From assembly GCA_016213895.1 (NCBI GenBank), contig JACQZJ010000067.1, positions 1 to 42,345 on the forward strand: a stretch of 42,345 bases of DNA, written 5' to 3'. Shown piece by piece: positions 20,499 through 34,136 of the stretch (positions within the stretch are counted from its first letter, which is position 1; the number at the start of each line of letters is the position of its first letter). This DNA is from Planctomycetota bacterium. Its GTDB lineage: Bacteria > Planctomycetota > B15-G4 > JADJEK01. Below the pieces are notes generated by a model that made no database searches, was not told where the DNA came from, and was given only the letters and a program-made list of their open reading frames with translations. The position numbers were made by a program, and so were the translations under genes.

Positions 20499-20574
20499 GG
20501 GTTGGTAGCTCAACTGGCAGAGCACCTGATTCCAAATCAGGGGGTTGAGGGTTCGATTCCTTCCCGACCCGCCA
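20499..20574 (+). tRNA. tRNA-Trp (anticodon CCA)
   Basis: A complete cloverleaf of 76 nt: acceptor stem GGGTTGG/CCGACCC (one G-T pair), D stem GCTC/GAGC, anticodon stem CCTGA/TCAGG with loop TTCCAAA (anticodon CCA), T stem GAGGG/CCTTC with loop TTCGATT, discriminator G and an encoded CCA tail. It sits between the divergent exonuclease and the M32 peptidase; the peptidase ATG follows 80 nt later and may share the transcript. Confidence 0.95.
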
Positions 20575-20653
20575 GACATGGATCGGGGCGGCGCGCGCCA
20601 GCGGTGCGCGCCGCCCCTTCTTCTTGCGCCAGGGCGCGTCTCCGGGAGGATCC

Positions 20654-22162
20654 ATGGGCATCCGCGAGGACCTGACCTCGCTGTGCGCGGCCTTCGCCGA
20701 GATCCACGACCTGCACGCGGCCTCCAGCCTCCTTTCGTGGGACCAGGAGACGTGCATGCCGCAGAAGGGCCTGGCCGGCCGCGCGCCGGCTCTGGCCGCT
20801 CTCGCCGGCCTGTGCCACGAGAAGCTGTGCGCGCCCCGCGTCGGCGACCTCCTCGAGCGCCTCGCCGAGCGCACCGCCGCGGAAGACCTCTCCGCCGAGG
20901 AGGCCGCGCTCGTGCGCGAAGCACGCCGCGATCACGAGCGCGCGAGCAAGGTGCCGGCGGCGATCGTGCGCGAGGTGGCGGAAGCGAGCAGCAAGGCGCT
21001 CGTCGCCTGGCAGCAGGCGCGCGCCGCGAGCCGCTTTCAAGACTTCGCTCCCCACCTCTCCCGGCTCGTGTCGCTGAAGAAGAGAACCGCCGAGGCGCTG
21101 GGCTACGCCGAGACGCCGTACGACGCCCTGCTGGACGAATTCGAGCCGGGCGTCACGACCTCCTTCCTGCAGCGCCTCTTCCTCGAGCTGCGGGCCGAGC
21201 TCAAGCCCTTCGTCCAGGAAGTCCTCGCCGCGCGCAAGGTGGACGCGGAGCCGGTGCGGCGGCGCTACGAGCCCGCGCGCCAGATCGCCTTCGCGACCGA
21301 GGTGGCGCGCTCCATGGGATTCGACTTCGAAGCGGGCCGCATCGACCGCGCCGCGCACCCCTTCTGCTCGGGCATCCACCGCGGCGACGTGCGCTTGACC
21401 TGGCGCAGCAGCGACGACGACCTGCGGCCGGCGCTCTTCGGCGTCATCCACGAGGCCGGGCACGGCCTCTACGAGCAGGGACTGCCGGAGGCCTGGGCGC
21501 GGACGCCGCTCGGCGAGGCCTCCTCCTACGGCATCCATGAGTCCCAGTCGCGCCTCTGGGAGAACCTGGTGGGCCGCGGCCGGGCCTTCTGGAAGCACTT
21601 CCTGCCGCGCCTGCAGGACTTCTTCCCGGGCGTGGCCGCGGACCTGGACGTGGAGGCGATGTACCGCGCGGTCAACGAGGTCACGCCGTCCTTCATCCGC
21701 ACCGAGGCGGACGAGCTCACCTACAACCTGCACATCGTCTTGCGCTTCGAGATCGAGCGCGATCTGTTCGCGGGGAAGCTCGCGCTCGAGGATCTGCCGG
21801 AGGCCTGGAACAACGGCACGGAGGCCCTGCTCGGCATCCGCCCGGGAAACGACGCGCAGGGGCTGCTCCAGGACATCCACTGGTCGATGGGTTCGTTCGG
21901 CTACTTCCCGAGCTACACGCTCGGCAACCTCTACGCGGCCCAGCTCTTCGACGCAGCGCTCTCCGACATCCCGGACCTGGAGGCGCGTATCGCGCAGGGC
22001 GACCTCCTGCCCCTGCGCGAGTGGCTGCGCGAGAAGGTCCACGCCCGCGGCCGCCTGCTGCAGGCGCGGGACCTCATCCGCGACGTGACCGGCCGGGAGC
22101 CGGGCATGGAGGCGTTCCTCGCCCAAGTCCGGCGGAAGTTCGGGGAGATCTACGGGGTCTGA
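20654..22162 (+). CDS. M32 carboxypeptidase (thermostable carboxypeptidase Taq-like)
   Basis: 502 residues, no signal peptide, cytoplasmic. Zinc site HEAGH (His266, Glu267, His270) followed by the third-ligand segment GIHESQSRLWEN. Other M32 landmarks: an N-terminal LLSWDQETCMP near residue 27, CSGIHRGDVRLT before the zinc site, ELTYNLHIVLRFEIE and IHWSMGSFGYFPSYTLGN near the end. These enzymes remove C-terminal residues from peptides. Length equals the family norm (about 500). A GGGAGG site lies 4 nt before the ATG. Frames starting earlier run through the tRNA and are excluded. Confidence 0.95.
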   Translation: MGIREDLTSLCAAFAEIHDLHAASSLLSWDQETCMPQKGLAGRAPALAALAGLCHEKLCAPRVGDLLERLAERTAAEDLSAEEAALVREARRDHERASKVPAAIVREVAEASSKALVAWQQARAASRFQDFAPHLSRLVSLKKRTAEALGYAETPYDALLDEFEPGVTTSFLQRLFLELRAELKPFVQEVLAARKVDAEPVRRRYEPARQIAFATEVARSMGFDFEAGRIDRAAHPFCSGIHRGDVRLTWRSSDDDLRPALFGVIHEAGHGLYEQGLPEAWARTPLGEASSYGIHESQSRLWENLVGRGRAFWKHFLPRLQDFFPGVAADLDVEAMYRAVNEVTPSFIRTEADELTYNLHIVLRFEIERDLFAGKLALEDLPEAWNNGTEALLGIRPGNDAQGLLQDIHWSMGSFGYFPSYTLGNLYAAQLFDAALSDIPDLEARIAQGDLLPLREWLREKVHARGRLLQARDLIRDVTGREPGMEAFLAQVRRKFGEIYGV

Positions 22163-22191
22163 CCCCGCGCGCGCCGCCAGGCGAGACGCAC

Positions 22192-22239
22192 GAGGCGGGC
22201 GACGCGCCCGGCCCGCGCGGCCGGGAGCGTGCCCGCCTC
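22192..22239. terminator. long bidirectional hairpin between convergent genes
   Basis: A 48-nt near-perfect hairpin: GAGGCGGGC (22192-22200) pairs with GCCCGCCTC (22231-22239), inside it ACGC with GCGT and CCCGGCC (22207-22213) with GGCCGGG (22219-22225), loop CGCGC. It sits between the stops of the M32 and propeller genes. No T-run, but the stem is very stable. Confidence 0.65.
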
Positions 22240-22271
22240 TCCTGGGATGGTGTTCTCGCGTCGCGCCGTCT

Positions 22272-23756
22272 CTACGGCACGAAGGTCACCGCGATCCCGT
22301 TCGACATGTAGTAGCGATACGGCAGCTTGCCCGCGACCTGCGTGAAGTACACGGTGAGCCCGAGCAGGCTGGCCGGCGCCGGCAGCACCCACTGAGCATC
22401 GCCGTTCCCGTCCAGGGTGAACGAGCCCGTGAGCACGATCAGGTCATGGGTGAGGTAGCCGTACGGCGGCAGCGGATGGTTGTAGCCGAGCGGCGTGAGC
22501 CCGATGAGCAGCTGGTAGTTGTCGGAGTCCGCGCCCTTGAAGTCGAGGTTCCACGTGGTGTTGATCGACACCGCGGACGGCGCCGAGAGGAGCGGCGTGG
22601 GCAGCAGGCAGAGCGCGCGCGGCGTAGAGGTCGAGCCGATGGCGACCGAGCTGTCCCAGACGATCTGGCCCTCGCCCGCGTCCTGGGCGTCGAGGTCGCC
22701 GTTCAGGTCCTGGTTCATGATGACCCAGTCGCCCTTCGATGATTCGTTGTAGAAGAGGCGTCCGTTCTCGTCGACCTCCATGCCGTAGCCGATGTACGGA
22801 ACGAGGTGGGTCGCTCCGAAGACACCGGTGTTGTCAGCGTAGATCCACGACTCGCCCGCGTCCTCGAAGTCGCCGTCCGCGTTCGAGTCGCTCAGCCGGA
22901 GGATCTTCCTGAAGGTGCCGGCGCAGTACACGTAGATATCGCCGTCGGGCCCCACGCCCAGACTCGCGGGGAAAGCGAAGCCGGGCTGGCCGGGCTGCGT
23001 GCCGGTGTACGCAACGATCACCTCGCCCGGATCCATGAAGTCGCCGTCGTTGTTGCCGTCCGTCATCCGGTAGAACCCGGGAGTGGAGTAGAAGTCGGAG
23101 ACCCAGAGGCTGGCGGTCAGGCCCGGATCGAGAAGAATGCAGAACGGAACCTGGATGTTGAACGGTCCGGTCGCCGAGTCGTAGGCGATGGTCAACTCGC
23201 CCGCGTCCTGCGCGTCGTTGTCGCCGTTCAGGTCCTCGGCGCGCCACACGAAGTCCGCCGGCGTCGTCCCAGCGCCGGCGTTCGTGCCCCACACGACGCC
23301 GTTGGCGTCGATGGCGAACTCGTTCATCGTGGGCAGGGGAATGCCCGAGGCGTTGGTGGCGTCGAGCCAGACCTGCCACTCGACCGGCGTGGTCGCGTGC
23401 GCGGACCCGTCACCCGTGTAGTCGATCGTGCGCACGATCACGTCTCCCGTGGTGTCCGCGATGAACACGTGGCCGCGCGCGTCCACCGCCACGCAAGACG
23501 GGTTCCCGGTCGCCGGCCCGCCGGCGATCCCGGCGTGGTAGTGGAAGATGGTCTCGCCGGCGCCGTTGAAGTCGAGATCCTGGTTCAGGTTCGCCAGGCG
23601 GTGGATCACGTCGTTGCCGCTGTCGTTCAGGATGATGTCGAAGGTCCGCGCCTGCGGCTTGAGACCGGGAGCGGGACCGGTCTGTGCCGTGCTGTCGTCC
23701 GGCAAGAGAGCAAGAGTCGCCAGGAAGCCGGCCCCCAACAGGAGTGTTCTCTTCAT
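22272..23756 (-). CDS. secreted beta-propeller protein with EF-hand-like loop repeats
   Basis: 494 residues with a signal peptide (1-24; ends STAQ). Four acidic loops of nearly the same form occur at similar spacing: DLNGDNDAQDAGE, DGNNDGDFMDPGE, DSNADGDFEDAGE and DLNGDLDAQDAGE, which resemble the Ca2+-binding loops of EF-hand/dockerin and thrombospondin type 3 repeats. Between them are NHL-like strands (CVAVDARGHVFIADTTGD, FAIDANGVVWG, LGVGPDGDIYVY). The last 100 residues form a beta-rich tail (TWNLDFKGADSDNYQLLIG ... GNGDAQWVLP) like C-terminal domains of other exported planctomycete proteins. Start chosen for its GGAAGG site and the signal peptide. Function unknown; probably extracellular or periplasmic. 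Confidence 0.75.
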   Translation of the reverse strand: MKRTLLLGAGFLATLALLPDDSTAQTGPAPGLKPQARTFDIILNDSGNDVIHRLANLNQDLDFNGAGETIFHYHAGIAGGPATGNPSCVAVDARGHVFIADTTGDVIVRTIDYTGDGSAHATTPVEWQVWLDATNASGIPLPTMNEFAIDANGVVWGTNAGAGTTPADFVWRAEDLNGDNDAQDAGELTIAYDSATGPFNIQVPFCILLDPGLTASLWVSDFYSTPGFYRMTDGNNDGDFMDPGEVIVAYTGTQPGQPGFAFPASLGVGPDGDIYVYCAGTFRKILRLSDSNADGDFEDAGESWIYADNTGVFGATHLVPYIGYGMEVDENGRLFYNESSKGDWVIMNQDLNGDLDAQDAGEGQIVWDSSVAIGSTSTPRALCLLPTPLLSAPSAVSINTTWNLDFKGADSDNYQLLIGLTPLGYNHPLPPYGYLTHDLIVLTGSFTLDGNGDAQWVLPAPASLLGLTVYFTQVAGKLPYRYYMSNGIAVTFVP

Positions 23757-23813
23757 CGCTGCTTTCCTTCCTTGAACCACGTCCGATGGTCGCCGATGCC
23801 GGACCCCGTAAGA

Positions 23814-23838
23814 CTCCGCGCCCGTCTGGCGCGCGGAG
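23814..23838. other. hairpin in the leader of the propeller gene
   Basis: CTCCGCGC (23814-23821) pairs perfectly with GCGCGGAG (23831-23838) across a 9-nt loop. It lies inside the predicted 5' untranslated region of the propeller mRNA. Confidence 0.35.
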
Positions 23839-23892
23839 AGGATTGAAACGCGAGGGTTTGGAAGCCGGCTCGGAGTGAACAACAACAGGTGC

Positions 23893-23921
23893 AGTATACC
23901 ATCCACGAAATGGATCGTCAG
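23893..23921 (-). promoter_or_regulatory. promoter with a spacer palindrome upstream of the propeller gene
   Basis: On the minus strand: -35 CTGACG (23916-23921), exact 17-nt spacer, TGG extension and -10 TATACT (23893-23898). The spacer contains the inverted repeat ATCCA-n5-TGGAT (23901-23915), placed where a repressor could block polymerase. The leader would be about 130 nt. Confidence 0.6.
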
Positions 23922-24008
23922 TCCCCAGACGGCCCTGCCCAGAGGGTTTCCTGCCCTGTTGCTGAGGCGCAACATCCGGGCGCCAGCAGGCCGCGAAGGA
24001 GCCGTCCC

Positions 24009-25396
24009 CTACCTGCCCCAGCGCTCCTCGAACTTGCGCCGCGCCTCTTCGCGGCGCGCTCTCTCCTCGGCGTCCGCGCCGCCGAGCTGCCACGCGTGAT
24101 CCGCGGACTGCATGACTTCCTCGAGCCTCTGCTTCAGCTTCCGCCCCCCCTCGACCTGCTGGCTGTCCCCGGAGGACAGGGCGCGCGCCGCCAGCGCGTC
24201 GAGCGCTGGCGTGAGATCGTTGTAGAACACTCGCGCCACGTCGTAGAGGCCGTGCCAGTGGGTGTAGTCCGGGCCCGCCATGGCCGCGCCGTGGCGCGCC
24301 CGCCGGCCCGCGTGCTGCGCCAGCTCGTACCAGGTCCAGTCGAGGCGCCGCGCGAACGGCGCCCCGTCCGCCAGGAGGGGCTCGGCGAGGTCCATCAGCT
24401 CCTGGCCGGGCCGGGCGAACTTGCCGTTGTACAGCTCGATCACGCCGTCGTACTGCACGAAGAAGTGGTCGGTCAGGCGCTCGCTGTGGCAGGAGCCGCA
24501 CACGTCCTTCATGCTCATGCGGCGCTCCTCCCAGGTGATGTCCATGCTGGCGAGGCCGAGCCGCTCGTCGGCCAGGTCCGCGCGCTCCGCGACGGTCACG
24601 CGGTTGTTCCAGCTGATGCGCAGGCCGGGATCGTGCGTCACGTCCTGGTTCGGCGTGGCCGACAGATGGCACGAGGCGCAGGTCGGGCCGGTGAAGTAGT
24701 CCTCGCCCACGACCCAGCGTGGCGCGTCCAGGCGCACCAGATCCTCGAGCGCGAAGAAGGCGATGCCGTGCTTCGACTCCTCGTAGATCTCCTTCTGCGG
24801 GTGGTCCGGGCCGAGGTGGCACTTGCCGCACGTGTCCGGGTGGCGCGCCTGGGCCACCGAGAACATGTGCGTGGCGTGGCAGGCGTGGCAGGCGCCACGC
24901 GTGCCGTCCGGGTTCCTGCGGCCCACGCCCGTATTCGGCCAGGTCGCCGGGTCGGGCACGGCGCCCTCGAGGAGCTTGATCTGCGAGCCGTGGCACTGCG
25001 CGCAGCCCGCCACGGCCGCGGCGGACACGCCGTCCGGGAAGCCCGCCGTCTTGAAGGCGCGGCTCCCCTCCACCACGTCGGCGAGCACCTGCTGCAGCGA
25101 GTCCTCGACGTCCCCGGCCAGGGCGTGGCGCGAGGCCGAGAACTCGGCCACCTCGCGGTCGTGGCAGCGGGAACAGTCGCGCGGCGTAACGATGTTGGAC
25201 ATCAAGAAGTCGTAGTGCACGTACGCGTCCGGCTCGCCCTCGTTCGCGCTGTGGCACTCGTAGCAGCCGACGTTGGAGCGGAAGTGGCCGCTCGCGCCCC
25301 ACTGGCGGCAGATGCCGGGAGTGTGCCGCTGGTGGCACTCGTAGCAGCCGCGCGTCTCGTCGCTGAGCTCGCGCAGGCCGATGGCCTGCGACTCAT
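24009..25396 (-). CDS. octaheme HAO-like cytochrome c (5' frameshift or unusual start)
   Basis: Eight CxxCH heme sites are read in one frame: two CYECH, then CSRCH, CAQCH, CHACH, CGKCH, CASCH and CGSCH, the arrangement of octaheme hydroxylamine oxidoreductase-like cytochromes, which oxidise hydroxylamine or reduce nitrite/hydroxylamine in the periplasm. The cross-linking Tyr of true HAO cannot be assigned, so direction is unknown. The first ATG (25394-25396), in a perfect ATGA overlap with nrfD, is one frame off; the heme frame has no ATG, GTG or TTG before a GTG at 25220, which would lose two hemes. It carries no recognisable signal peptide. Either a frameshift (real or sequencing) lies between 25396 and about 25370, or the start is non-standard. 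The C-terminal 100 residues are helical and charged. Confidence 0.75.
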
Positions 25397-26610
25397 GACG
25401 GTCCTCCCGTCTTCTCGCAGGAATCGAAAGGCGGCGCGCTGGTCAAGCGGCCCGCGCTCACCGCCGCCGTGATGCGGACCAGGACGCTGTAGGAGAGCAA
25501 ACCAACGGCCAGCACGCCCAGGCATACCAGCGCCTCGTTCAAGGTCGGCGCGTATTCCACCACCTCGCCGAGCGGCGAGGGAACGAACGCGGGCGTGATC
25601 CGACCAACGGCCTCCTCGACGAGGACGCCGGCGAGGCCGGCGCCGCAGGCAAAGGCCAGGACCTTCCGCCGCGACCAGGCGGACAGCCAGAACAGGGACA
25701 CGGCGAGGAGCTTGAGCGCGAGCGCGGTCCAGATCCACGGCGCCAGGACGAAGCGGCCGTCGAGCCCGAAGTAGAGATACGTCATGGACGGACGCGGCGC
25801 CGCGCGGCCGAGGAACTCGAGCAGGAGCGCGACGGCGCACAGCAACAGGTCCGCGCACAGGGCGGCAACCAGGAGCGCGCGCAGCAGGCGCAGCGCACGC
25901 GCGCCCGCCTCGCCCGCGGCGCAGAGCATGCCGCTCGCGAGCAGCGTGAGCAGCAGCACGGCCGGCGCCGCGGCGCAGGCCGCGGCCGCGAAGCGCAACG
26001 CGCCGAGCGGCGTTTCCCAGAAGGCGCGCCCGCCGAGGCCGACGTAGAGGAACGATGCCGCCGACTGGGCGCCGAAGGCCCAGAGGACCGCGAGCAGCGC
26101 AAAGGGCAGGAGGAGCGCGCGGCCGGGGCGCCGGCCCAAGTAGGCGCAGTAGACCAGGCTGCCCCAGACATGCAGATTCAGTAGCAGGAACACGCCGAGG
26201 GCCAGGACGTGCCAGGGCAGCTCCACCAGAATGTGCAGCACGCGGTCCGGACGCCCGGTGTCGGCGATCACGAAGCCAGCGGCCGCGAGTACGCACGCCA
26301 CGGCGAGCGCCGCGCCGAGGAGCGCGAGATCGAGGAGGTCCTGGCCGCGCAGGAAGTAGAGCGGCAGGACGAGCAGCACGGCCGCGCAGGCGGTGCCCAC
26401 GGCCAGGGCGAAGCCCGCGATGTAGATCCCCCAGGTGACGTGGTCGGAGAGGCCGGTGGTCGCCAGGCCCGCGGTCCACTGCCGCGCGCCGGCGTTCACG
26501 CCGACCAGCGCCGCGGCCGTGAGCGCGAACATCCACGCCTGGTAGCGTCCGCCGCCCGCGAAGCTCAGAACGAAGGAGCGGCCGAGGAAACGCAGGTAGC
26601 CGCGCATCAT
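25393..26610 (-). CDS. nrfD: NrfD/PsrC-type quinone-interacting membrane subunit
   Basis: 405 residues with about ten hydrophobic segments, as usual for NrfD/PsrC proteins, which bind quinol at the periplasmic side of the membrane and pass electrons to a ferredoxin subunit. Family features: an N-terminal WGIYIAGFALAVG segment after helix 1-2, paired helices and a VLAFACGAGLAGVLVEEA helix near the end. The ATG overlaps the ferredoxin stop in an ATGA, and its own stop overlaps the next ATG the same way. Gene symbol by family only; its physiological acceptor is inferred from the neighbouring cytochromes. Confidence 0.88.
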   Translation of the reverse strand: MMRGYLRFLGRSFVLSFAGGGRYQAWMFALTAAALVGVNAGARQWTAGLATTGLSDHVTWGIYIAGFALAVGTACAAVLLVLPLYFLRGQDLLDLALLGAALAVACVLAAAGFVIADTGRPDRVLHILVELPWHVLALGVFLLLNLHVWGSLVYCAYLGRRPGRALLLPFALLAVLWAFGAQSAASFLYVGLGGRAFWETPLGALRFAAAACAAAPAVLLLTLLASGMLCAAGEAGARALRLLRALLVAALCADLLLCAVALLLEFLGRAAPRPSMTYLYFGLDGRFVLAPWIWTALALKLLAVSLFWLSAWSRRKVLAFACGAGLAGVLVEEAVGRITPAFVPSPLGEVVEYAPTLNEALVCLGVLAVGLLSYSVLVRITAAVSAGRLTSAPPFDSCEKTGGPS

Positions 26611-27563
26611 TCGCGATCCGGCCCGGGCGCCGCCGGAGAGGCGCGCGCGCTGTCCTCGCCGGCGTAGTAGTAGAAGCGCGGCAGGGTGCCGAGCTCGGGC
26701 TTGAGCACGAACACGCGCTTGTGCGCCAGGATCCAGGCCAGCTCGCCGCCCTCGTCCAGGACGTCGCCGAACTTGCGGGCGCCGTTGGGACAGGCCTCGA
26801 CGCAGGCCGGCTGGAGTCCGGCGCGCGTGCGGTGCAGGCAGAAGTGGCACTTCTCCACCACGCCGGCCGAGCGCGGCCGATTCGCCAGGTAGTCCATGCG
26901 CGCATTGAGCGCGGAGGAGGGTACGGCGGGCGGCGCGAAGTTGAAGCGCCGCGCCCAGTACGGGCACGCGGCCATACAGAGGCGGCAGCCAATGCACCAG
27001 TCGTAGTCGATGACGACCACGCCGTCCGGCTCCTGCCAGGTGGCGCCCACCGGGCAGGCGCTCACGCAGGGCGGGTCCGCGCACTGCTGGCACTGAATCG
27101 GCAGGTAGTAGCGCCCGGCGCGCGGCAGGCGCTCGTGCTCGTAGTGATGGTCGCCCTGAGCGAGGTCGAGGCTGCCCTCGGGCAGCTCCAGCACGCGGAT
27201 GTACTGGATCTCCGGGTCGCGGCTGGCGTTGTTCTCCGCGGCGCAGGCGTGCACGCAGCGCCGGCAGCCCACGCACTTGTCGATATCGAGGGCGAAGGCG
27301 AACTCGACGCCTGGCAGGGCCTTGTGGTCATTGACCTCGGCCCGCACGCCGTGGCGCTCCAGCACCTCCGCCTCGACGCGCGCCAGGACCTGCTTCAGTT
27401 CCTCCGGGGTCATGCGCAGGTAGTGCGGCTGCAGCAGCCTCTCCAGGCTGAAACCCGTCGCCGCGCCCTTGCCGAGGGGAGCGAGGCTGGCCGCGGCGGC
27501 CGCGAGACCGCCCGCGCCGCCGAGGGCGCCGCGCAGGAACGCGCGCCGCGAGGGAGCGCTCAT
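26607..27563 (-). CDS. nrfC: Tat-exported ferredoxin subunit with four [4Fe-4S] sites (NrfC-like)
   Basis: 318 residues. A twin-arginine signal (RRAFLRG at about 6-12, then a hydrophobic Ala/Leu stretch) exports the folded protein. Four cysteine clusters follow: CVGCRRCVHAC, CQQCADPPCVSACP, CIGCRLCMAACPY and CHFCLHRTR...CVEACP, the standard four-cluster electron wire of NrfC/PsrB/HmcB-type subunits, placed between NrfD and a periplasmic partner. The start ATG overlaps the stop of the tetraheme cytochrome (ATGA), so the four genes are translated as a unit. A region of about 60 residues between the signal and the first cluster is unassigned. Confidence 0.92.
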   Translation of the reverse strand: MSAPSRRAFLRGALGGAGGLAAAAASLAPLGKGAATGFSLERLLQPHYLRMTPEELKQVLARVEAEVLERHGVRAEVNDHKALPGVEFAFALDIDKCVGCRRCVHACAAENNASRDPEIQYIRVLELPEGSLDLAQGDHHYEHERLPRAGRYYLPIQCQQCADPPCVSACPVGATWQEPDGVVVIDYDWCIGCRLCMAACPYWARRFNFAPPAVPSSALNARMDYLANRPRSAGVVEKCHFCLHRTRAGLQPACVEACPNGARKFGDVLDEGGELAWILAHKRVFVLKPELGTLPRFYYYAGEDSARASPAAPGPDRE

Positions 27564-28237
27564 CGCCCGCCCTCCGCGCGCGCGGCGCGCGGCTCTCCCA
27601 TGCGCAGCGTGCGCGGGCCGGGGAGGGGCCGCACCTCGTCCATCACGGGCAGGCGCGGGACGTGCGGATCGTGGCACTCCAGGCAGCCGAGGTGGCGCAC
27701 GGCGCCGAAGCGCGCGTCCCAGCCTCCGTCCGCGCGGCCGTGCAGGCCGTGCTCGAAGTCTCCGCGCACTTCCTCGTGGCACTCCAGGCAATGACGGAGC
27801 GACTCGCTGTAGGGCAAGGGCGTGCCGTCCTTCAGCCGCAGGAGGTCGTAGCCCGGCTCGAGGTGGCAGGCGCGGCAGGCCACGATGTCTCCGTGCTCGA
27901 CAACCACGCTCTGGTGCTGCAGCCGCAGCGGCGCGGGATCGGCCGCGCGCGGGCGGAAGAGGCGATGGCAGTCGGAGCAGGATCTGAGGAAGCCGTTGAC
28001 CTTGGCGCCCTGCGGGCCGGCGAGAACGGAGCGCGGCAACGACCCGAGGAGCACGGGCTCGGTCGCCCCGGCGCCCCGCAGATCGGGAATGACGGCGAGA
28101 TTCGGCCCCCAGACGAACCAGGCCGCGAGACCGAGGAAGCCGGCGCCGAAGAGGCATGCGCGCCAATCGCCGGGCAGAGCGGCGCCGCTCGCTCGGCTGT
28201 CGGTCGCTGCCCCAACGTTGCACTTCGCGGTACGCAC
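27560..28237 (-). CDS. membrane-anchored tetraheme cytochrome c
   Basis: 225 residues. An N-terminal membrane segment (about 28-50) anchors a periplasmic domain with four CxxCH sites (CSDCH, CRACH, CLECH, CLECH) and further His residues able to act as distal ligands. It is the first gene of the electron-transfer operon and likely passes electrons between the Fe-S subunit and the octaheme cytochrome. Start uncertain: GTG at 28237 has only a weak site. It is divergent from the M28 peptidase; the two share a 71-nt promoter gap where no clear boxes are visible. Confidence 0.85.
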   Translation of the reverse strand: MRTAKCNVGAATDSRASGAALPGDWRACLFGAGFLGLAAWFVWGPNLAVIPDLRGAGATEPVLLGSLPRSVLAGPQGAKVNGFLRSCSDCHRLFRPRAADPAPLRLQHQSVVVEHGDIVACRACHLEPGYDLLRLKDGTPLPYSESLRHCLECHEEVRGDFEHGLHGRADGGWDARFGAVRHLGCLECHDPHVPRLPVMDEVRPLPGPRTLRMGEPRAARAEGGR

Positions 28238-28308
28238 TTCTGACCTGCAGGCAACGGTACGAGGTCGCAGCGGCGGTTCAAGGAGGTATCCTTCGGAGCG
28301 AGGACCCC

Positions 28309-30486
28309 ATGCGCAGGTTCGAATCCACCCCGATCACCGCGGCGTCCCTTACCCTCTCCTGGGCCCTCCTGTTCGCCGCACCGGCTGGCGCCCAGCCCGT
28401 CACCGTCGACCCGCGCGTCAGCTCCCTCGTGGCCCAGGTGAGCAAGGGCAACATCCAGAACGCGGTCAGCCAGCTCTCGTCCTTCCACACGCGCCGCTCC
28501 GACCAGCCCGAGGCCCTGCTGGCGAAGAACTGGCTCGTGGCGCGCTTCCAGGCCATTCCCGGCGTGACGGTGACGACCGAGACCTTCCAGGCCGGCTACG
28601 CGCCGAACATCATCTGCGAGCTCCCGGGAGCCACCCACCCGGAGAGGATCCTCGTGCTCGGGGCGCACTACGACTCGATCAACGAGGGGGGAGCAGAGAA
28701 GCCCGCGCCCGGCGCCGATGACAACGCCTCGGGAGCGGCCGGCCTCCTCGAGGCCGCGCGCGTGCTCGCCCAGGGCCAGTTCGAAGCCACGATCCGCGTC
28801 GTGCTGTTCGCGGCCGAGGAGTTCAACCTCGACGGATCGAGCGCCGACGCCCAGGGCCTGGTCGACTCGGGCGCGCAGGTTCTCGGCATGTTGAACCTGG
28901 ACATGATCTCGTACCGGCAGGCGGGCGACGCGTACGACGTCGACTTCATCCTGGGCGCCACCGACACGGACCTGACCCAGTTCTGCATGGACGTGACCAG
29001 CGCGTACCTTCCCTGGCTGGGAGTAAAAAGCGGGTTCGACGACGCCGGGGACTCCGATCACCACTCGTACCAGAGCCGCGGCATCCCCTCTGTCTTCTTC
29101 TTCGAGGACTTCAACCACTTCTCGCCCTGGATCCACACCGCCAAGGACGCGACGGGCAAGAGCGCGAACGACTTCGACCTCGCGCATGACATCACGCGGT
29201 CCCTGGTGGCGAGCGCGGCGTCGCTCGCTCAGCCCGTCGACCTCGACATCCTGCACGCGCCGCTCGCCGGCTCGGCCGATTCCGGCGGGCCCTACGCGAC
29301 GAGCGCGACGGTCGCCTCCTTCACCTCCTACGCCGTCGCCTCGGTCGATCTGGTCTACCGCGCCGGCGCCGGAGCGTGGACCACGACCGCGATGGTGAAG
29401 TCTGCGACGACGGGCGCATGGCTCGGGTCGATCCCGGGACTGCCCGGGCACGGCAACGTCGACTACTACATCCACGCCACCGACTCCGCCGGGTACGCCG
29501 AGTGGACGCCCGAGGCGAAGAGGCCGGGGGACGCGTGCTTCAGGTTCAAGGTCGGGACGATCACCCCGATCTTCCAGGACGACTTCGAGGCGCCGGGCGA
29601 GAACGGATGGGTGAGCGTCAAGGAGAAGAAGGAAGACGACTGGCAGAAGGGCAAGCCGCAGGGCGCCTCCGGCTTCGATCCGTCGGCGGCGGCGAGCGGC
29701 CACAGCGCGCGGGGCAACGACCTCGGCCTCGCCGGGCTCAACGGCAAGTACAAGGCCAAGGTCGAGAACTACCTCGAGTCGCCGCCGATCGACTGCACCG
29801 GCCGGACCGGCGTCCTCTTGCGCTACCAGCGCTGGCTCACGGTCGAGGACGGCTTCTACGACCAGGCCCGGATCAAGGTCAACAACCAGACGGTATGGAC
29901 GAACGCCAAGACGCCGGGAGGCGGCGCGCAGCACACCGTCGACAAGGCGTGGACCCTGCACGAGGTCGACGTTTCCGCCCTGGCCGACGACAACCCGTCG
30001 GTGCGCGTGCGCTTCCAGCTCAAGAGCGACGGCGGGCTGCAGTTCGGCGGCTGGACGCTGGACGACTTCCGGCTCGTCACGGTCGGCGACGGCACGGTCG
30101 CTCCTCTCGTCGCCTCGCGCTCGTGCCTCTCCGCCGCGCAGGGCGGCACGGTCCAGTTCTCCATCGACGCCGGAGCGCAGCACGCGCACCGGCCCTACAT
30201 CGTGGGAATCAGCGGAACGGGCTCGGCTCCCGCCACGGTGGTGGACGGGACTCCAATTCCGCTCGTCTTCGACGCGGTGACGCAGGCCGGTCTGCAGTTG
30301 ATGAACTCGCAGATCCTCGCGGACTTCGGCGGCACGCTCTCCGCGACCGGGACCGCCACGGCGACGCTGGCCCTGCCGGGCGGCTCCGTTCCGGCCCTGG
30401 CCGGGCTCCGCTTCCACTTCGCCGCGTTCACCCTGGCGCCCGTCACCTGGGCGTCGAACGCCGTCTCGCTCGAGTTCGGCCTCTGA
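28309..30486 (+). CDS. secreted M28 aminopeptidase with C-terminal beta domains
   Basis: 725 residues: signal peptide (1-27, ends GAQ), then an M28 zinc peptidase domain (about 45-310) with all ligand segments present: GAHYDS, the bridging Asp in PGADDNASG, AAEEFNLDGSS, NLDMISY and SDHHSYQSRGIPS. These bacterial leucine-aminopeptidase-like enzymes release N-terminal residues outside the cell. A fibronectin-like strand region, a jelly-roll/MAM-like part (LLRYQRWLTVEDGFYDQARI...GGWTLDDF, about 430-590) and a final beta domain like the tail of the propeller protein follow. ATG follows a GAGGA site; an AAGGAGG at 28280-28286 has no start codon at useful distance. Confidence 0.92.
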   Translation: MRRFESTPITAASLTLSWALLFAAPAGAQPVTVDPRVSSLVAQVSKGNIQNAVSQLSSFHTRRSDQPEALLAKNWLVARFQAIPGVTVTTETFQAGYAPNIICELPGATHPERILVLGAHYDSINEGGAEKPAPGADDNASGAAGLLEAARVLAQGQFEATIRVVLFAAEEFNLDGSSADAQGLVDSGAQVLGMLNLDMISYRQAGDAYDVDFILGATDTDLTQFCMDVTSAYLPWLGVKSGFDDAGDSDHHSYQSRGIPSVFFFEDFNHFSPWIHTAKDATGKSANDFDLAHDITRSLVASAASLAQPVDLDILHAPLAGSADSGGPYATSATVASFTSYAVASVDLVYRAGAGAWTTTAMVKSATTGAWLGSIPGLPGHGNVDYYIHATDSAGYAEWTPEAKRPGDACFRFKVGTITPIFQDDFEAPGENGWVSVKEKKEDDWQKGKPQGASGFDPSAAASGHSARGNDLGLAGLNGKYKAKVENYLESPPIDCTGRTGVLLRYQRWLTVEDGFYDQARIKVNNQTVWTNAKTPGGGAQHTVDKAWTLHEVDVSALADDNPSVRVRFQLKSDGGLQFGGWTLDDFRLVTVGDGTVAPLVASRSCLSAAQGGTVQFSIDAGAQHAHRPYIVGISGTGSAPATVVDGTPIPLVFDAVTQAGLQLMNSQILADFGGTLSATGTATATLALPGGSVPALAGLRFHFAAFTLAPVTWASNAVSLEFGL

Positions 30487-30538
30487 GCGACCGGGGTTCT
30501 CCGACCGAGAGACGAGACGCCGGCCGGCGTGCTCAGAG
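30481..30538. terminator. inverted repeats across two convergent stop codons
   Basis: CTCTGAGC (30481-30488) and GCTCAGAG (30531-30538) are perfect complements, each containing the stop of one M28 gene. Inside, ACGCCGGCCGGCGT (30517-30530) is a perfect 14-bp palindrome. Likely a shared terminator. Confidence 0.45.
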
Positions 30539-33028
30539 CTGGAAGGTGCGCTTCACGTGCACGCTGTCCGGCACGTTCGGGTAGGGCATGACGTCCTCCG
30601 GGCGCGGCGCCCACTCGGCGCCGGGCAGCTCGGGCAGGCCGTCGCTGGTCACGACCGTGACGGCTTCCACCGGTTCCTTGGTGCGGAAGACGAGCTTCAG
30701 CAGGACGCCCGCGGCGGGCGGCGCGACGAAGCGCAGCGCCACTCCGGCCGCGGTCTCCCGCCGCGGTGCGCCCGCGCCTGCTCCCGCGCGCAGCACCTCC
30801 TTGCCATCCACCTCGAGCAGGCGCGCAGGCACGCCTGCGGCGATCGAGAGAAAGACGCTGCGCGTGCCGGGCGGCGCGAGCAGGCGCAGCACGCAAGAGC
30901 GCTCCTCCGGCGTCTCCACCAGCTCCTCCAGGTCGAACTGCGCCGCGGGCAGCGTCGCGACCGGCGCCGCCGAGACCAGGCACTCGGCGTGCAGGAACGG
31001 CAGCACCTCCTCGAGCGTGCGCAGGCGCGGTTCGGAGGCGTGGAACTGGACCGACCAGTCGTTCAGCTCCTGGTCGAGGGTGGCGAAGAACGCCCGCCCC
31101 GCGTCCGCGTCGAGGCAGTAGAGCGCGCTGTCGCGGCGCGGGTGGCGCGCGTCGACGTCGGTGCGGAGCGCCGCGCCGAGCAGAACCAGGAATCCCGCGA
31201 CCGCGGCTCCTCCGCAGAGGGGCCAGCGCCGCGGCGCGGTCATGAGCGCCAGCAGGGGAGCGAGCAGGCCGAGGAGGAGCACTGCGGCCGCCACGAGCAG
31301 CCAGGCCGCCTCGAGCGTCAGCGCCTGATGCAGCATCCCGAGGAGCGGCGTCACGAGCACGATGCCGGGCAGGATGGCGAGGCAGACGAGCACGCCCTGC
31401 GCCGGCCCGAACGACCGGTTGCGCGGCCGCAGCACCAACAGGCCGAGGCCCGCCGCGGCGAAGAGGAGCGGCCAGGAGAAGACGTACGCTCCCTCGGGCA
31501 GGAATACGCCGCTGGCGAGCGCAAGCGCCGCCCACCAGAGGAGCGCGCCGCACCACAGGCCCTCGACCTTGCACAGCCCGCGCGCGCGGGAGAACACGAG
31601 GGAGCAGAGCGCGACCACGAGCAGCAGCAGCCCGGCGGCCAAGAGGTCCCCGTGGTCGAGGAGGATCCAGCGCGCCCGCGAGGCCGGCGCGCCCGCGCCG
31701 CAGAACAGCTCGCGCACCAGGAAGGCGAGCAGGACCGAGAGCGCCGCCGCGACGAGCACGGCCAGGAAGCCCACGAGAACAGCGCCCCACGCGATCCAGC
31801 GGCGGCGCACGCCGGCGAACAGGGCGAGCAGAAGAGCGAGCGCGCTCAGCGCGCAGAGAGGCCGCGCCAGCGCCGCGGGATAGCGCACCACGAAGGCGCG
31901 CAGCACGCTGAAGTAGACGCTGCGCCCCCGCGGCGCTTGCGCGAGATCCGCGGCGCCGAGGCGGCGCGCCAGGGCGAGAGCCGCTCCGCCCTGGTGCTGC
32001 ACGCTGCCCGGCGCGAGCAGGTCCGGCCGGTCGAGCATGCTGTGGTAGCTGCAAAGCCCGCCGATGAAGGCGAAGTTCAGTCCCGGGATCCCCTGCTCCT
32101 TGAAGACCGTCAAGTCGGTGTCGTTCGGCATGGCGCCGTAGATCGCGCTGGCGAGCGAGCTGGCCAGCGGGTCCGGCGCCACGGCCGCGAGCGCCTCGAT
32201 GAGCGCGGCGTCCTCGCCGCTCGTCTCGAACATGATCGCCGGCCCCCTCTGTCCCCGCGCCTCGAAGTTCAGCACCGCGCCCACCCGCGCCGCGAGCGGG
32301 TGCTCCCGCAGGAACGCGCACGCGCCGAGGAGCCCGACCTCCTCGGCGTCCGTGACCACGAACAGGACGTCGTTCGGGAGGGGCGCGGACGCCCTGAGCG
32401 CACGCGCCGTCTCGAGCAGCACCGCCACGCCCGACGCGTCGTCCGCGGCGCCCGGTCCGGTGGCCGCGGAGTCGTAGTGCGCGACCAGCGCTACGGCCTT
32501 GCCGCCGGGACGCGTCCCGGCGAGACGGGCCACGACGTTCTGCACCGCGGCCGCGAGCACGCTCCGCGCCGAGGCCTGGAGCGCGACGCTCGCCTCCTGG
32601 ACGTCGACCTCGAGGCCCAGCTCCTGGAAGCACTCGACCAGGTAGGCGCGCACTCGGGCGTGCTCCTCGGAGCCCACGGGATGGGGGCGCGCGGCCAGGA
32701 CGCGCACGTGCGCCAGCGCGCGCTCGGCCGAGAAGCACTCGGCGGGGGCGCTGGCCGGGACGGGCGCGGGCGCGCGCAGCTCCCGCGTCGCCACGACCGT
32801 CGCGGCGGCGACCAGGGCGAAGGCAGCCGCGGCGCACAGGCCGGCGCGCCTCAAGACGCCGCGCCTCCCGCGCGCGGATCGCGGCAGCCGCGCCTGGAGA
32901 GCGCGGCGGACCAGGCAAGCAAGGGGGTTCTCACGGCGCGGCAACCTACCAGACGAGGGGCCGGCCGCGGCAGCCGGTTCTGCGCATCGCGACGGACCCG
33001 CAGCCCTGCGCTCCTCCGCCGGCTGCAT
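30533..33028 (-). CDS. membrane M28 peptidase (ERMP1/Fxna-like)
   Basis: 831 residues from the ATG at 33028. An N-terminal membrane segment precedes a periplasmic M28 domain with the ligands VAHYDS, GAADDASG, TDAEEVGLLG, NFEARG and YHSMLDRPD, followed by about 8-9 hydrophobic segments and a final soluble beta-rich domain of about 200 residues. This is the layout of ERMP1/Fxna-like proteins; their substrates are mostly unknown. The start is uncertain: a GGGAGG is only 2 nt from the ATG, and the first membrane segment begins some 50 residues later. It is convergent with the secreted M28 peptidase and divergent from ferrochelatase. Confidence 0.85.
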   Translation of the reverse strand: MQPAEERRAAGPSRCAEPAAAAGPSSGRLPRRENPLACLVRRALQARLPRSARGRRGVLRRAGLCAAAAFALVAAATVVATRELRAPAPVPASAPAECFSAERALAHVRVLAARPHPVGSEEHARVRAYLVECFQELGLEVDVQEASVALQASARSVLAAAVQNVVARLAGTRPGGKAVALVAHYDSAATGPGAADDASGVAVLLETARALRASAPLPNDVLFVVTDAEEVGLLGACAFLREHPLAARVGAVLNFEARGQRGPAIMFETSGEDAALIEALAAVAPDPLASSLASAIYGAMPNDTDLTVFKEQGIPGLNFAFIGGLCSYHSMLDRPDLLAPGSVQHQGGAALALARRLGAADLAQAPRGRSVYFSVLRAFVVRYPAALARPLCALSALALLLALFAGVRRRWIAWGAVLVGFLAVLVAAALSVLLAFLVRELFCGAGAPASRARWILLDHGDLLAAGLLLLVVALCSLVFSRARGLCKVEGLWCGALLWWAALALASGVFLPEGAYVFSWPLLFAAAGLGLLVLRPRNRSFGPAQGVLVCLAILPGIVLVTPLLGMLHQALTLEAAWLLVAAAVLLLGLLAPLLALMTAPRRWPLCGGAAVAGFLVLLGAALRTDVDARHPRRDSALYCLDADAGRAFFATLDQELNDWSVQFHASEPRLRTLEEVLPFLHAECLVSAAPVATLPAAQFDLEELVETPEERSCVLRLLAPPGTRSVFLSIAAGVPARLLEVDGKEVLRAGAGAGAPRRETAAGVALRFVAPPAAGVLLKLVFRTKEPVEAVTVVTSDGLPELPGAEWAPRPEDVMPYPNVPDSVHVKRTFQL

Positions 33029-33095
33029 CGCCTCCCGCCCGCACCGAACCAGTTCGGACTGGACACGCGCTGCCCCGCGCGGCTTGCATCTCGGC

Positions 33096-34136
33096 ATGGC
33101 CGCCGGCCGCACCGGAGCGCTCCTCGTCCACCTCGGCACGCCCGCCGCGCCCACGCGCGCGGCCGTCTGCAGCTACCTGCGCGAGTTCCTCTCCGATCCG
33201 AGGGTGCTCGACATGCACCCGCTGGCCCGCTTCCTGCTGCTGCGGCTCGTCATCCTGCCGTTGCGCTCGCCGCGCTCGGCGGCCGCCTATCGCAGGATCT
33301 GGACGGCGGAGGGCTCGCCGCTCCTGGTGCATGGCCTCGCCCTGCGCGACCGCCTGCGCGAGCGGCTGCCGGACATGCCCTTCGAGCTGGCCATGCGCTA
33401 CGGCGCCCCGCGCCTCGAGCACGGGCTCGCGGCGCTTGCCGCCGCGGGGTGCGAGCGGGTCGTGGTCTTCCCCCTCTACCCGCAGCACGCCGAAAGCACG
33501 TCCGGCTCGGCCGAGGCCGCGGCACGCCGGCATGCCCGCGCCTACTTCGAGGACGAGGCGGTCTCTCTCGTCCCGCCCTTCTTCGCGGACGCGGGCTTCC
33601 TCGCCGCATGCGCCGCGGCCGTCGGGCCAGCGCTCGAGCGCTTCTCGCCCGACCACGTCCTCTTCAGCTGCCACGGCCTGCCGGAGCGCCAGGTGCGCGC
33701 CGCCGACCCCACGCGCGGGCGCTGCCTCGTTGCCCCGGACTGCTGCGCGGAACTCGGCACCGAGAACAGCCGCTGCTATCGCGCTCAGTGCTTGGCGACC
33801 ACGCGCGCCCTGGCCTTGCGCCTGGGACTCGCGCCCGGGAGCCACGGCACGTCCTTCCAGTCGCGCCTGGGCAGGGCGCGCTGGATCGGCCCAGCCACGA
33901 GCGAGGCGCTCGCCGCGCTGGCCGCGCGCGGCCAGAAGAGGGTGCTGGTCTTCTGCCCCTCGTTCACGGCCGACTGCCTGGAGACGCTGGAGGAGATCGG
34001 CGTGCGCGAAGCGGAGCGCTTCCGCGCCCGCGGCGGCGAGGCCCTGGAGCTGGTTCCCGCGCTCAACTCCCGGCCGGAGTGGGTCGAGGCAGCGGCGCAC
34101 CTGCTGCTCCGCGCGCGCGCCGAGCGCTCCCCGTAG
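33096..34136 (+). CDS. hemH: ferrochelatase
   Basis: 346 residues. Inserts Fe2+ into protoporphyrin (or coproporphyrin) at the end of heme synthesis. Seen: the N-terminal ALLVHLGTP, the VFPLYPQHAESTSGS region, the catalytic His193 in FSCHGLPE, the Gln/Ser segment FQSRLGRARWI and the conserved Glu296 in CPSFTADCLETLEEIG. Length fits bacterial ferrochelatases. Two cysteines near CLVAPDCCAELG and two more after it could hold a [2Fe-2S] cluster as in some lineages, but the pattern is not conclusive. ATG chosen just before the first strand. No other heme gene is adjacent; the multiheme operon 5 kb away is a likely consumer. Confidence 0.92.
   Translation: MAAGRTGALLVHLGTPAAPTRAAVCSYLREFLSDPRVLDMHPLARFLLLRLVILPLRSPRSAAAYRRIWTAEGSPLLVHGLALRDRLRERLPDMPFELAMRYGAPRLEHGLAALAAAGCERVVVFPLYPQHAESTSGSAEAAARRHARAYFEDEAVSLVPPFFADAGFLAACAAAVGPALERFSPDHVLFSCHGLPERQVRAADPTRGRCLVAPDCCAELGTENSRCYRAQCLATTRALALRLGLAPGSHGTSFQSRLGRARWIGPATSEALAALAARGQKRVLVFCPSFTADCLETLEEIGVREAERFRARGGEALELVPALNSRPEWVEAAAHLLLRARAERSP

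Follow-up and report, generated by a model that had tools for sequence, protein, structure and literature searches.

A conserved tetraheme–iron-sulfur–NrfD–octaheme gene set: a putative quinol-linked nitrite reductase and its divergent duplicate in a Planctomycetota genome

The closest described systems are those of Thermosulfurimonas dismutans (TDIS_0606-0609) and Dissulfuribacter thermophilus (DBT_2326-2329), in which a four-gene locus lies beside napMADGH (PMC5276818; PMC4911364, in part). T. dismutans has the four parts beside nap, carries no NrfA and grows by nitrate ammonification (PMC5276818); nitrite reduction has been hypothesised for the locus of both organisms, with sulfur metabolism as the alternative (PMC5276818; PMC4911364, in part). 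Among related octaheme cytochromes, the reductive hydroxylamine oxidoreductase (HAO) of anammox bacteria converts nitrite to NO and Campylobacterota Hao reduces nitrite to ammonium in vitro (PMC12758564 and PMC9213671, both in part), and a substitute nitrite reductase role has been suggested for Phycisphaerae octahemes (PMC11266412, in part); the same source names the cultured 'Po. corsica' as having an octaheme. Here we analyse a tetraheme–iron-sulfur (Fe-S)–NrfD–octaheme gene set, the module, at positions 24009-28237 of contig JACQZJ010000067.1 from a Planctomycetota bacterium (assembly GCA_016213895.1); the window is the whole stretch of 42,345 nucleotides (nt). The module is real and conserved and, judged from its sequence, most likely represents a quinol-driven nitrite reductase complex. 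This functional idea is already in print. New here are how widely and in what order the set occurs, how often it goes with NapA, the finding of Trp where HAO has its cross-link Tyr, a sister group with a cytochrome b-like gene, and a divergent, broken copy; within the parts of the literature that were covered, we recognised no description of this exact four-gene set in Planctomycetota. An earlier note on this DNA treated the combination as unusual and named NrfA, molybdoenzymes and Qrc/Hmc complexes as the normal partners of NrfC/NrfD pairs. It overlooked that such a group of four had already been noted next to nap in T. dismutans (PMC5276818; PMC4911364, in part) and left out an octaheme precedent, MccACD (PMC8076601, in part).

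Parts of the gene set and conservation of its order

Minus-strand open reading frames, counts of CXXCH motifs and Cys residues, and profile matches confirmed the four subunits as the earlier note had named them:

28237-27560, minus strand: tetraheme c-type cytochrome, 225 amino acids, GTG start, four CXXCH motifs, one N-terminal membrane anchor
27563-26607, minus strand: periplasmic 4x[4Fe-4S] protein of Tat (twin-arginine) type, 318 amino acids, 16 cluster Cys, Tat-like SRRAFLRG, closest to DsrO (NrfC/PsrB class)
26610-25393, minus strand: NrfD-type integral membrane quinol-interacting subunit, 405 amino acids, closest to DsrP
25391-24009, minus strand: HAO-family octaheme cytochrome c, eight CXXCH motifs, frame intact, without start codon or export signal
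25396-25393 (deletion site 25391-25396), minus strand: third ATGA, whose ATG does not read the octaheme frame; here 67 nt present at the orthologous locus L026 are missing

With its NrfD membrane subunit and 4x[4Fe-4S] periplasmic subunit, the window holds a quinol complex of the NrfD-containing type. The Fe-S protein matches Pfam Fer4_11 and the NCBIfam model DsrO (E 2.4e-51), and the NrfD protein matches Pfam NrfD (E 8.9e-13) and NCBIfam DsrP (E 1.6e-66). Membership in DsrMKJOP was rejected, as both Dsr scores lie below the curated cut-offs (174.5 bits against 200 for DsrO, 225.1 against 350 for DsrP). In the tetraheme protein a helix is predicted at residues 25-43; all 38 extracted homologues have four CXXCH motifs, and every heme Cys and His is invariant in the tetraheme alignment A3. 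Its predicted structure (mean pLDDT, the per-residue confidence score, 69) gave no PDB fold match at E<=0.001. The ATGA overlaps between tetraheme and Fe-S genes (27563-27560) and between Fe-S and NrfD genes (26610-26607) are in frame on both sides.

The search for the same gene order that had been proposed as a check was carried out on the best 80 of 578 confirmed stretches, drawn from named genomes, and the fractions given for these 80 describe the best matches only. The order tetraheme-FeS-NrfD-octaheme was found at 54 of the 80 loci; six more are truncated by contig ends, with a visible part that fits, three have the octaheme first, and 17 have the octaheme alone. Of 24 longer stretches from a phylum sample, some of them the same contigs as among the 80, 16 carry all four genes in order, two are cut at contig ends, one is without the first two genes, and five hold lone octahemes. 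Taxa among the loci listed include Planctomycetota, Verrucomicrobiota, Hydrogenedentota, Deltaproteobacteria, Acidobacteria, Bdellovibrionales and a Candidatus Scalindua. The gene order is conserved and no accident.

Two side observations concern the same loci. The four-gene set also occurs in the Candidatus Scalindua record (L148, 3458-8452) and in two genomes of anammox-looking families (L088, L089). At L126, L165 and L168 the set is rearranged, with the octaheme ahead of the tetraheme and, where the contig reaches, ahead of the Fe-S and NrfD genes.

Octaheme active site and linkage to nitrate reductase

The octaheme scores 81 bits (cut-off 21.9) against Pfam Multi-haem_cyto, the multiheme family that holds HAO. 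Its best PDB match is the Ignicoccus octaheme 4qo5 (E 3.6e-48; profile E 3.9e-66), followed by a reductive HAO-like protein and by HAO itself (HAO E about 1e-14), and all 25 module rows of the octaheme alignment contain eight CXXCH motifs. By these matches it is an HAO-family octaheme cytochrome c. From alignment A4, L167 was omitted because of a stop codon in its stretch. In VIA-align the predicted structure (mean pLDDT 64) ranks HAO 4n4n (Z 9.7) and 4qo5 (Z 9.6) highest, and unrelated helical rows score only slightly lower; the rows listed do not include MccA. Since the structure predictions were of low quality, the HAO cross-link Tyr, which the earlier note had wished to see checked on a structural model, was examined by alignment instead.

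We located the cross-link column from solved chains, taking the residue to be Tyr467 in N. europaea HAO and Tyr451 in kustc1061. Every one of the 25 module rows carries Trp there, as do the 11 rows of the sister group described below. In an anammox-like genome, three rows resembling HAO or hydrazine dehydrogenase (HDH) have Tyr, the only rows to do so, and two reductive HAO-like rows have Trp. The distal-pocket Asp-His pair (GPDH; Asp267-His268 of HAO) is invariant. Every module row lacks the CXXCK active-site motif, and all eight motifs being CXXCH, none of the 25 has the extended CX15-17CH heme motif of MccA. Three assignments were accordingly rejected: an HAO or HDH proper, by the Trp and by a hydrazine dehydrogenase score of 58.6 bits against a cut-off of 900; NrfA or the octaheme nitrite reductase ONR, by the absence of CXXCK; and the MccA sulfite reductase, by the absence of the extended motif. 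Trp at the cross-link column, an invariant Asp-His pair and the lack of both special motifs fit a predicted reductase, and on these sequence features the octaheme belongs with the reductive, Tyr-less HAO-like nitrite reductases.

Gene neighbourhoods link the octaheme to NapA, the periplasmic nitrate reductase. The statement in the earlier note that no molybdopterin subunit is present holds for the window but not for the family: NapA lies within 20 of the 80 fetched stretches, and within 13 of the 39 that have full flanks. All three neighbour examples tested match NapA models, two of them above one curated cut-off, and the NapA neighbours are frequently joined by a NapB-like protein with four hemes or by a NapG-like protein. 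As a separate observation, two kinds of four-heme protein resembling a doubled NapB adjoin NapA, one at L105 (11605-12360), L122 and L134, downstream, and the other at L090 (3437-4081); the first kind has no NCBIfam match, and the second only a weak, unrelated one.

Co-occurrence was scored in a phylum sample of 392 genomes drawn from a larger group, with two NapA and four NrfA candidates scored per genome and with Fisher tests that ignore relatedness. Octaheme relatives were found in 90 genomes, NapA in 55 and NrfA in 101. Octaheme and NapA occur together in 23 genomes against an expectation of 12.6 (p 0.0008); 18 of the 23 have the two genes within 8 kb of each other (six of module type and 12 others). 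Octaheme and NrfA occur together in 13 genomes, where 23.2 are expected (p 0.006). Among the 22 module genomes, seven have NapA (3.1 expected, p 0.023), adjacent to the module in six of the seven. NirK was found in none of these 22, its control search being positive; a search for NirS (PF02239) gave no match in the 22, and its control likewise gave none. PF14589 gave no match in the window's genome, nor any in controls.

A second gene arrangement surrounds the nearest relatives. In a tree of 63 rows, hand-picked among the fetched sequences, the module clade has support of 100/100, and the nearest large group beside it consists of the octahemes of L030-L040. At the two loci checked by eye, L031 (8868-11382) and L033 (7655-12661), the sister octaheme is preceded by a cytochrome b-like gene. 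NapA directly follows the octaheme of L033 and was not found in the genome of L031. Of the 12 genomes in which a non-module octaheme adjoins NapA, six are sister-group rows of the tree and six score alike. The cytochrome b-like gene before these two sister octahemes points to another quinol donor for this kind of predicted enzyme, so that octahemes of one type appear to receive electrons from two different membrane complexes. An epsilon-Hao next to Nap and a Rieske/cytochrome b complex has been described in Caldithrix abyssi (PMC5317091, in part).

The third junction and the window copy

All three junctions had been described as ATGA overlaps, and the four genes as translated in one unit. The letters are present at the NrfD/octaheme junction as well, but the ATG at 25396 opens another frame. 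The first ATG, GTG or TTG in the heme-bearing frame of the octaheme is the GTG at 25220, downstream of the first two hemes, and a reading from this codon (403 amino acids) was rejected, since two hemes and any export signal would be lost. At the orthologous locus L026 (G001:C9, same genus) the octaheme is 86% identical and the flanking genes are syntenic, and there ATGAG is followed by signal-peptide sequence and then by the octaheme, all in frame. Compared with L026, the window lacks 67 nt directly after ATGAG, which is the signal-peptide region, and the missing stretch has no match anywhere else in the window's genome. Translation as one unit therefore fits L026 but not the window as assembled. 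By eye, a start and a basic/hydrophobic N-terminus precede the first heme in all 24 relatives with called starts, L026 included; each thus has a translatable, exportable octaheme, and the window copy does not. With no usable start left, this copy is broken or misassembled, and as assembled its octaheme can, from the sequence, be neither started nor exported.

The remainder of the octaheme frame is without lesion, and its ratio of nonsynonymous to synonymous change (dN/dS) against L026 is 0.27 over 460 codons (Fe-S protein 0.29, NrfD 0.33, tetraheme 0.38). An otherwise intact octaheme with such a ratio argues that the start was lost recently or through an artefact of draft assembly; the window's genome is a draft of 218 contigs. 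The same comparison contains five neighbour-gene indels that are not multiples of three: one in the M32 gene, three in a single M28 gene, and a fifth at the edge of the compared stretch. We did not count them as lesions, since the first four are no more than about 250 bases from gene starts that are themselves uncertain and the fifth is at the edge. The flanks of the module in the window (20499-33154) comprise tRNA-Trp, an M32 carboxypeptidase, an NHL-repeat protein and M28 peptidases, and their synteny is kept at L026.

Within the module clade, the window and L026 octahemes share a long branch of 0.91 changes per column. Both are changed at 29 of 202 columns that are near-invariant in the remaining 23 module rows, each of which deviates at 0-7. 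The changes include Arg186 to Thr, Trp370 to Ala, His371 to Gln and Glu373 to Ala (P0001 numbering). The sister group, too, is fixed at several of the 29 columns, and Arg186, in a CXXCH-x-R-H motif, is Arg also in seven of eight rows from the anammox-like genome. Both genomes carry an ordinary module in addition: L028 (G000:C25) in the window's genome and L027 (G001:C77) in the other. By this sequence evidence the module in the window is a divergent paralogue, a duplicate that evolves fast. Its present role is uncertain.

Two accounts of this copy have to be weighed. In one it is a functional, re-specialised paralogue and the 67-nt gap is an assembly error, which is a real possibility, if short of probable. 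The intact ortholog at L026, the dN/dS values of 0.27-0.38 over the four genes with no further frame lesion in the octaheme, and the near-invariant columns changed in common in both species favour it; the missing stretch, however, is supplied by no other place in the genome, and the ordinary copy tells of loss as well. napA adjoins L027, but beside L028 (1-500) only collinear scraps of napD and napB are left, and the search of the window's genome for napA gave none. That one pathway shows two lesions, the octaheme start and napA, suggests a real decay of nitrate/nitrite reduction in this lineage, although an error of the draft assembly may also account for them. In the other account the nitrite-reductase set has become a pseudogene copy as the lineage loses nitrate/nitrite respiration; this too is quite possible without being the expected outcome, since the frame-breaking loss of the signal region and the loss of napA fit it, but the genome is fragmented, and both the remaining octaheme frame and the three other genes are intact. 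That the duplicate was re-specialised as a unit in the genus we regard as unlikely. In this reading all four genes would have diverged together and become tightly ATGA-coupled and detached from nap; the octaheme, under purifying selection between the two species, would have exchanged residues that the module and its sister clade conserve, the four named above among them. The outcome would be an HAO-family, quinol-linked complex that has a new substrate or serves in electron transfer only.

Proposed function and comparison with known systems

We consider it probable that the module family is a membrane-bound quinol:nitrite (and/or hydroxylamine) reductase, and that the window copy is its duplicate, with octaheme start and export lost recently or by assembly error. 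From what can be read in the sequence, namely the parts, the gene set, the linkage to NapA, the eight CXXCH motifs, the Asp-His pair and the Trp, we infer an electron path, a direction, a substrate and a product. Quinol would be oxidised at NrfD, and electrons would pass through the four [4Fe-4S] clusters to the anchored tetraheme, acting as a relay between Fe-S protein and octaheme, and on to the HAO-fold octaheme, whose heme-4 site would reduce NapA-derived nitrite, either to ammonium or to hydroxylamine or NO as an intermediate. The first of the two roles offered in the earlier note, a quinol-linked nitrite/hydroxylamine reductase, is supported by the NapA linkage, by Trp in place of the cross-link Tyr, and by the counts of other nitrite enzymes in the 22 module genomes, where NirK was found in none and NrfA in three.

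Several findings weigh against the proposed function. NrfA is present in three of the 22 module genomes where 5.7 are expected, a difference that is not significant (p 0.22), and 15 of the 22 gave no NapA match among the two candidates scored per genome. In the window NapA is not near the module, and the copy there has 29 near-invariant positions changed and its start lost. Nine of the 80 loci are lone octahemes with at least 3 kb upstream, so that the octaheme may have other donors. In the literature we found no biochemical test of any module member.

An MccACD-like reductase for sulfur compounds (sulfite, tetrathionate or polysulfide) is improbable, given eight CXXCH motifs and no CX15-17CH in every module octaheme and given the linkage to NapA, although NrfD and Fe-S protein are closest to DsrP and DsrO. 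Such a role would have the precedent of the octaheme, FeS and NrfD layout of MccACD (PMC8076601, in part), has been suggested for other HAO-family proteins (PMC9213671, in part), and was put forward as the alternative for T. dismutans (PMC5276818). Hydroxylamine oxidation at the octaheme with quinone reduction at NrfD, the second role offered earlier, is very improbable: HAO and HDH share the fold family and NrfD complexes are listed as working in either direction (PMC8076601, in part), but the cross-link Tyr that this route would need, and that HAO/HDH rows have, is absent from all 25 module rows, and NapA is a source of nitrite.

Bacteria with NapA but without NrfA or NirK need another way of handling nitrite, and a widespread complex with an HAO-family octaheme on an NrfD quinol dehydrogenase would fill this gap in Planctomycetota, Verrucomicrobiota and others. 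The complex could conserve energy through NrfD, and would be easily overlooked, as annotation seeks NrfA, NirK or NirS or labels the octaheme 'hydroxylamine oxidoreductase'. The module also supplies specific partner proteins for one section of the HAO family that has no assigned function (PMC9213671, in part).

Compared with known systems, the octaheme is closest among solved structures, by sequence, to IhOCC of Ignicoccus hospitalis (PDB 4qo5), which has PDVP where the module has GPDHP. It shares HAO-family membership and the missing cross-link Tyr with the anammox reductive HAO-like protein (PDB 6h5l, Kustc0457/0458) and epsilon-Hao, but falls in another tree clade than the anammox rows L171 and L172, and the module has an NrfCD partner, whereas the parts of PMC12758564 and PMC9213671 that were covered state none for those enzymes. 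With the MccACD octaheme sulfite reductase it has in common an octaheme joined to an FeS and NrfD quinol dehydrogenase (PMC8076601, in part); it differs in having no extended heme motif, an additional tetraheme, and DsrO/DsrP-like partners. As in NrfABCD, the quinol dehydrogenase is of NrfC/NrfD type and nitrite is the likely acceptor, but an HAO-family octaheme stands in place of pentaheme NrfA and a tetraheme in place of pentaheme NrfB, and CXXCK is missing. The gene order cytochrome-FeS-NrfD is also that of DsrJOP in DsrMKJOP, and DsrO and DsrP are the closest NCBIfam models; unlike that system, the module scores under the cut-offs, has a tetraheme where DsrJ is triheme, has no recognised DsrMK and adds an octaheme. 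The window copy, not beside nap and with an octaheme that has no start, departs from the T. dismutans/D. thermophilus locus, with which the module, likened by published descriptions, shares an HaoA-homologous multiheme cytochrome c, an NrfD protein, a 4Fe-4S protein, a second cytochrome c and the linkage to nap.

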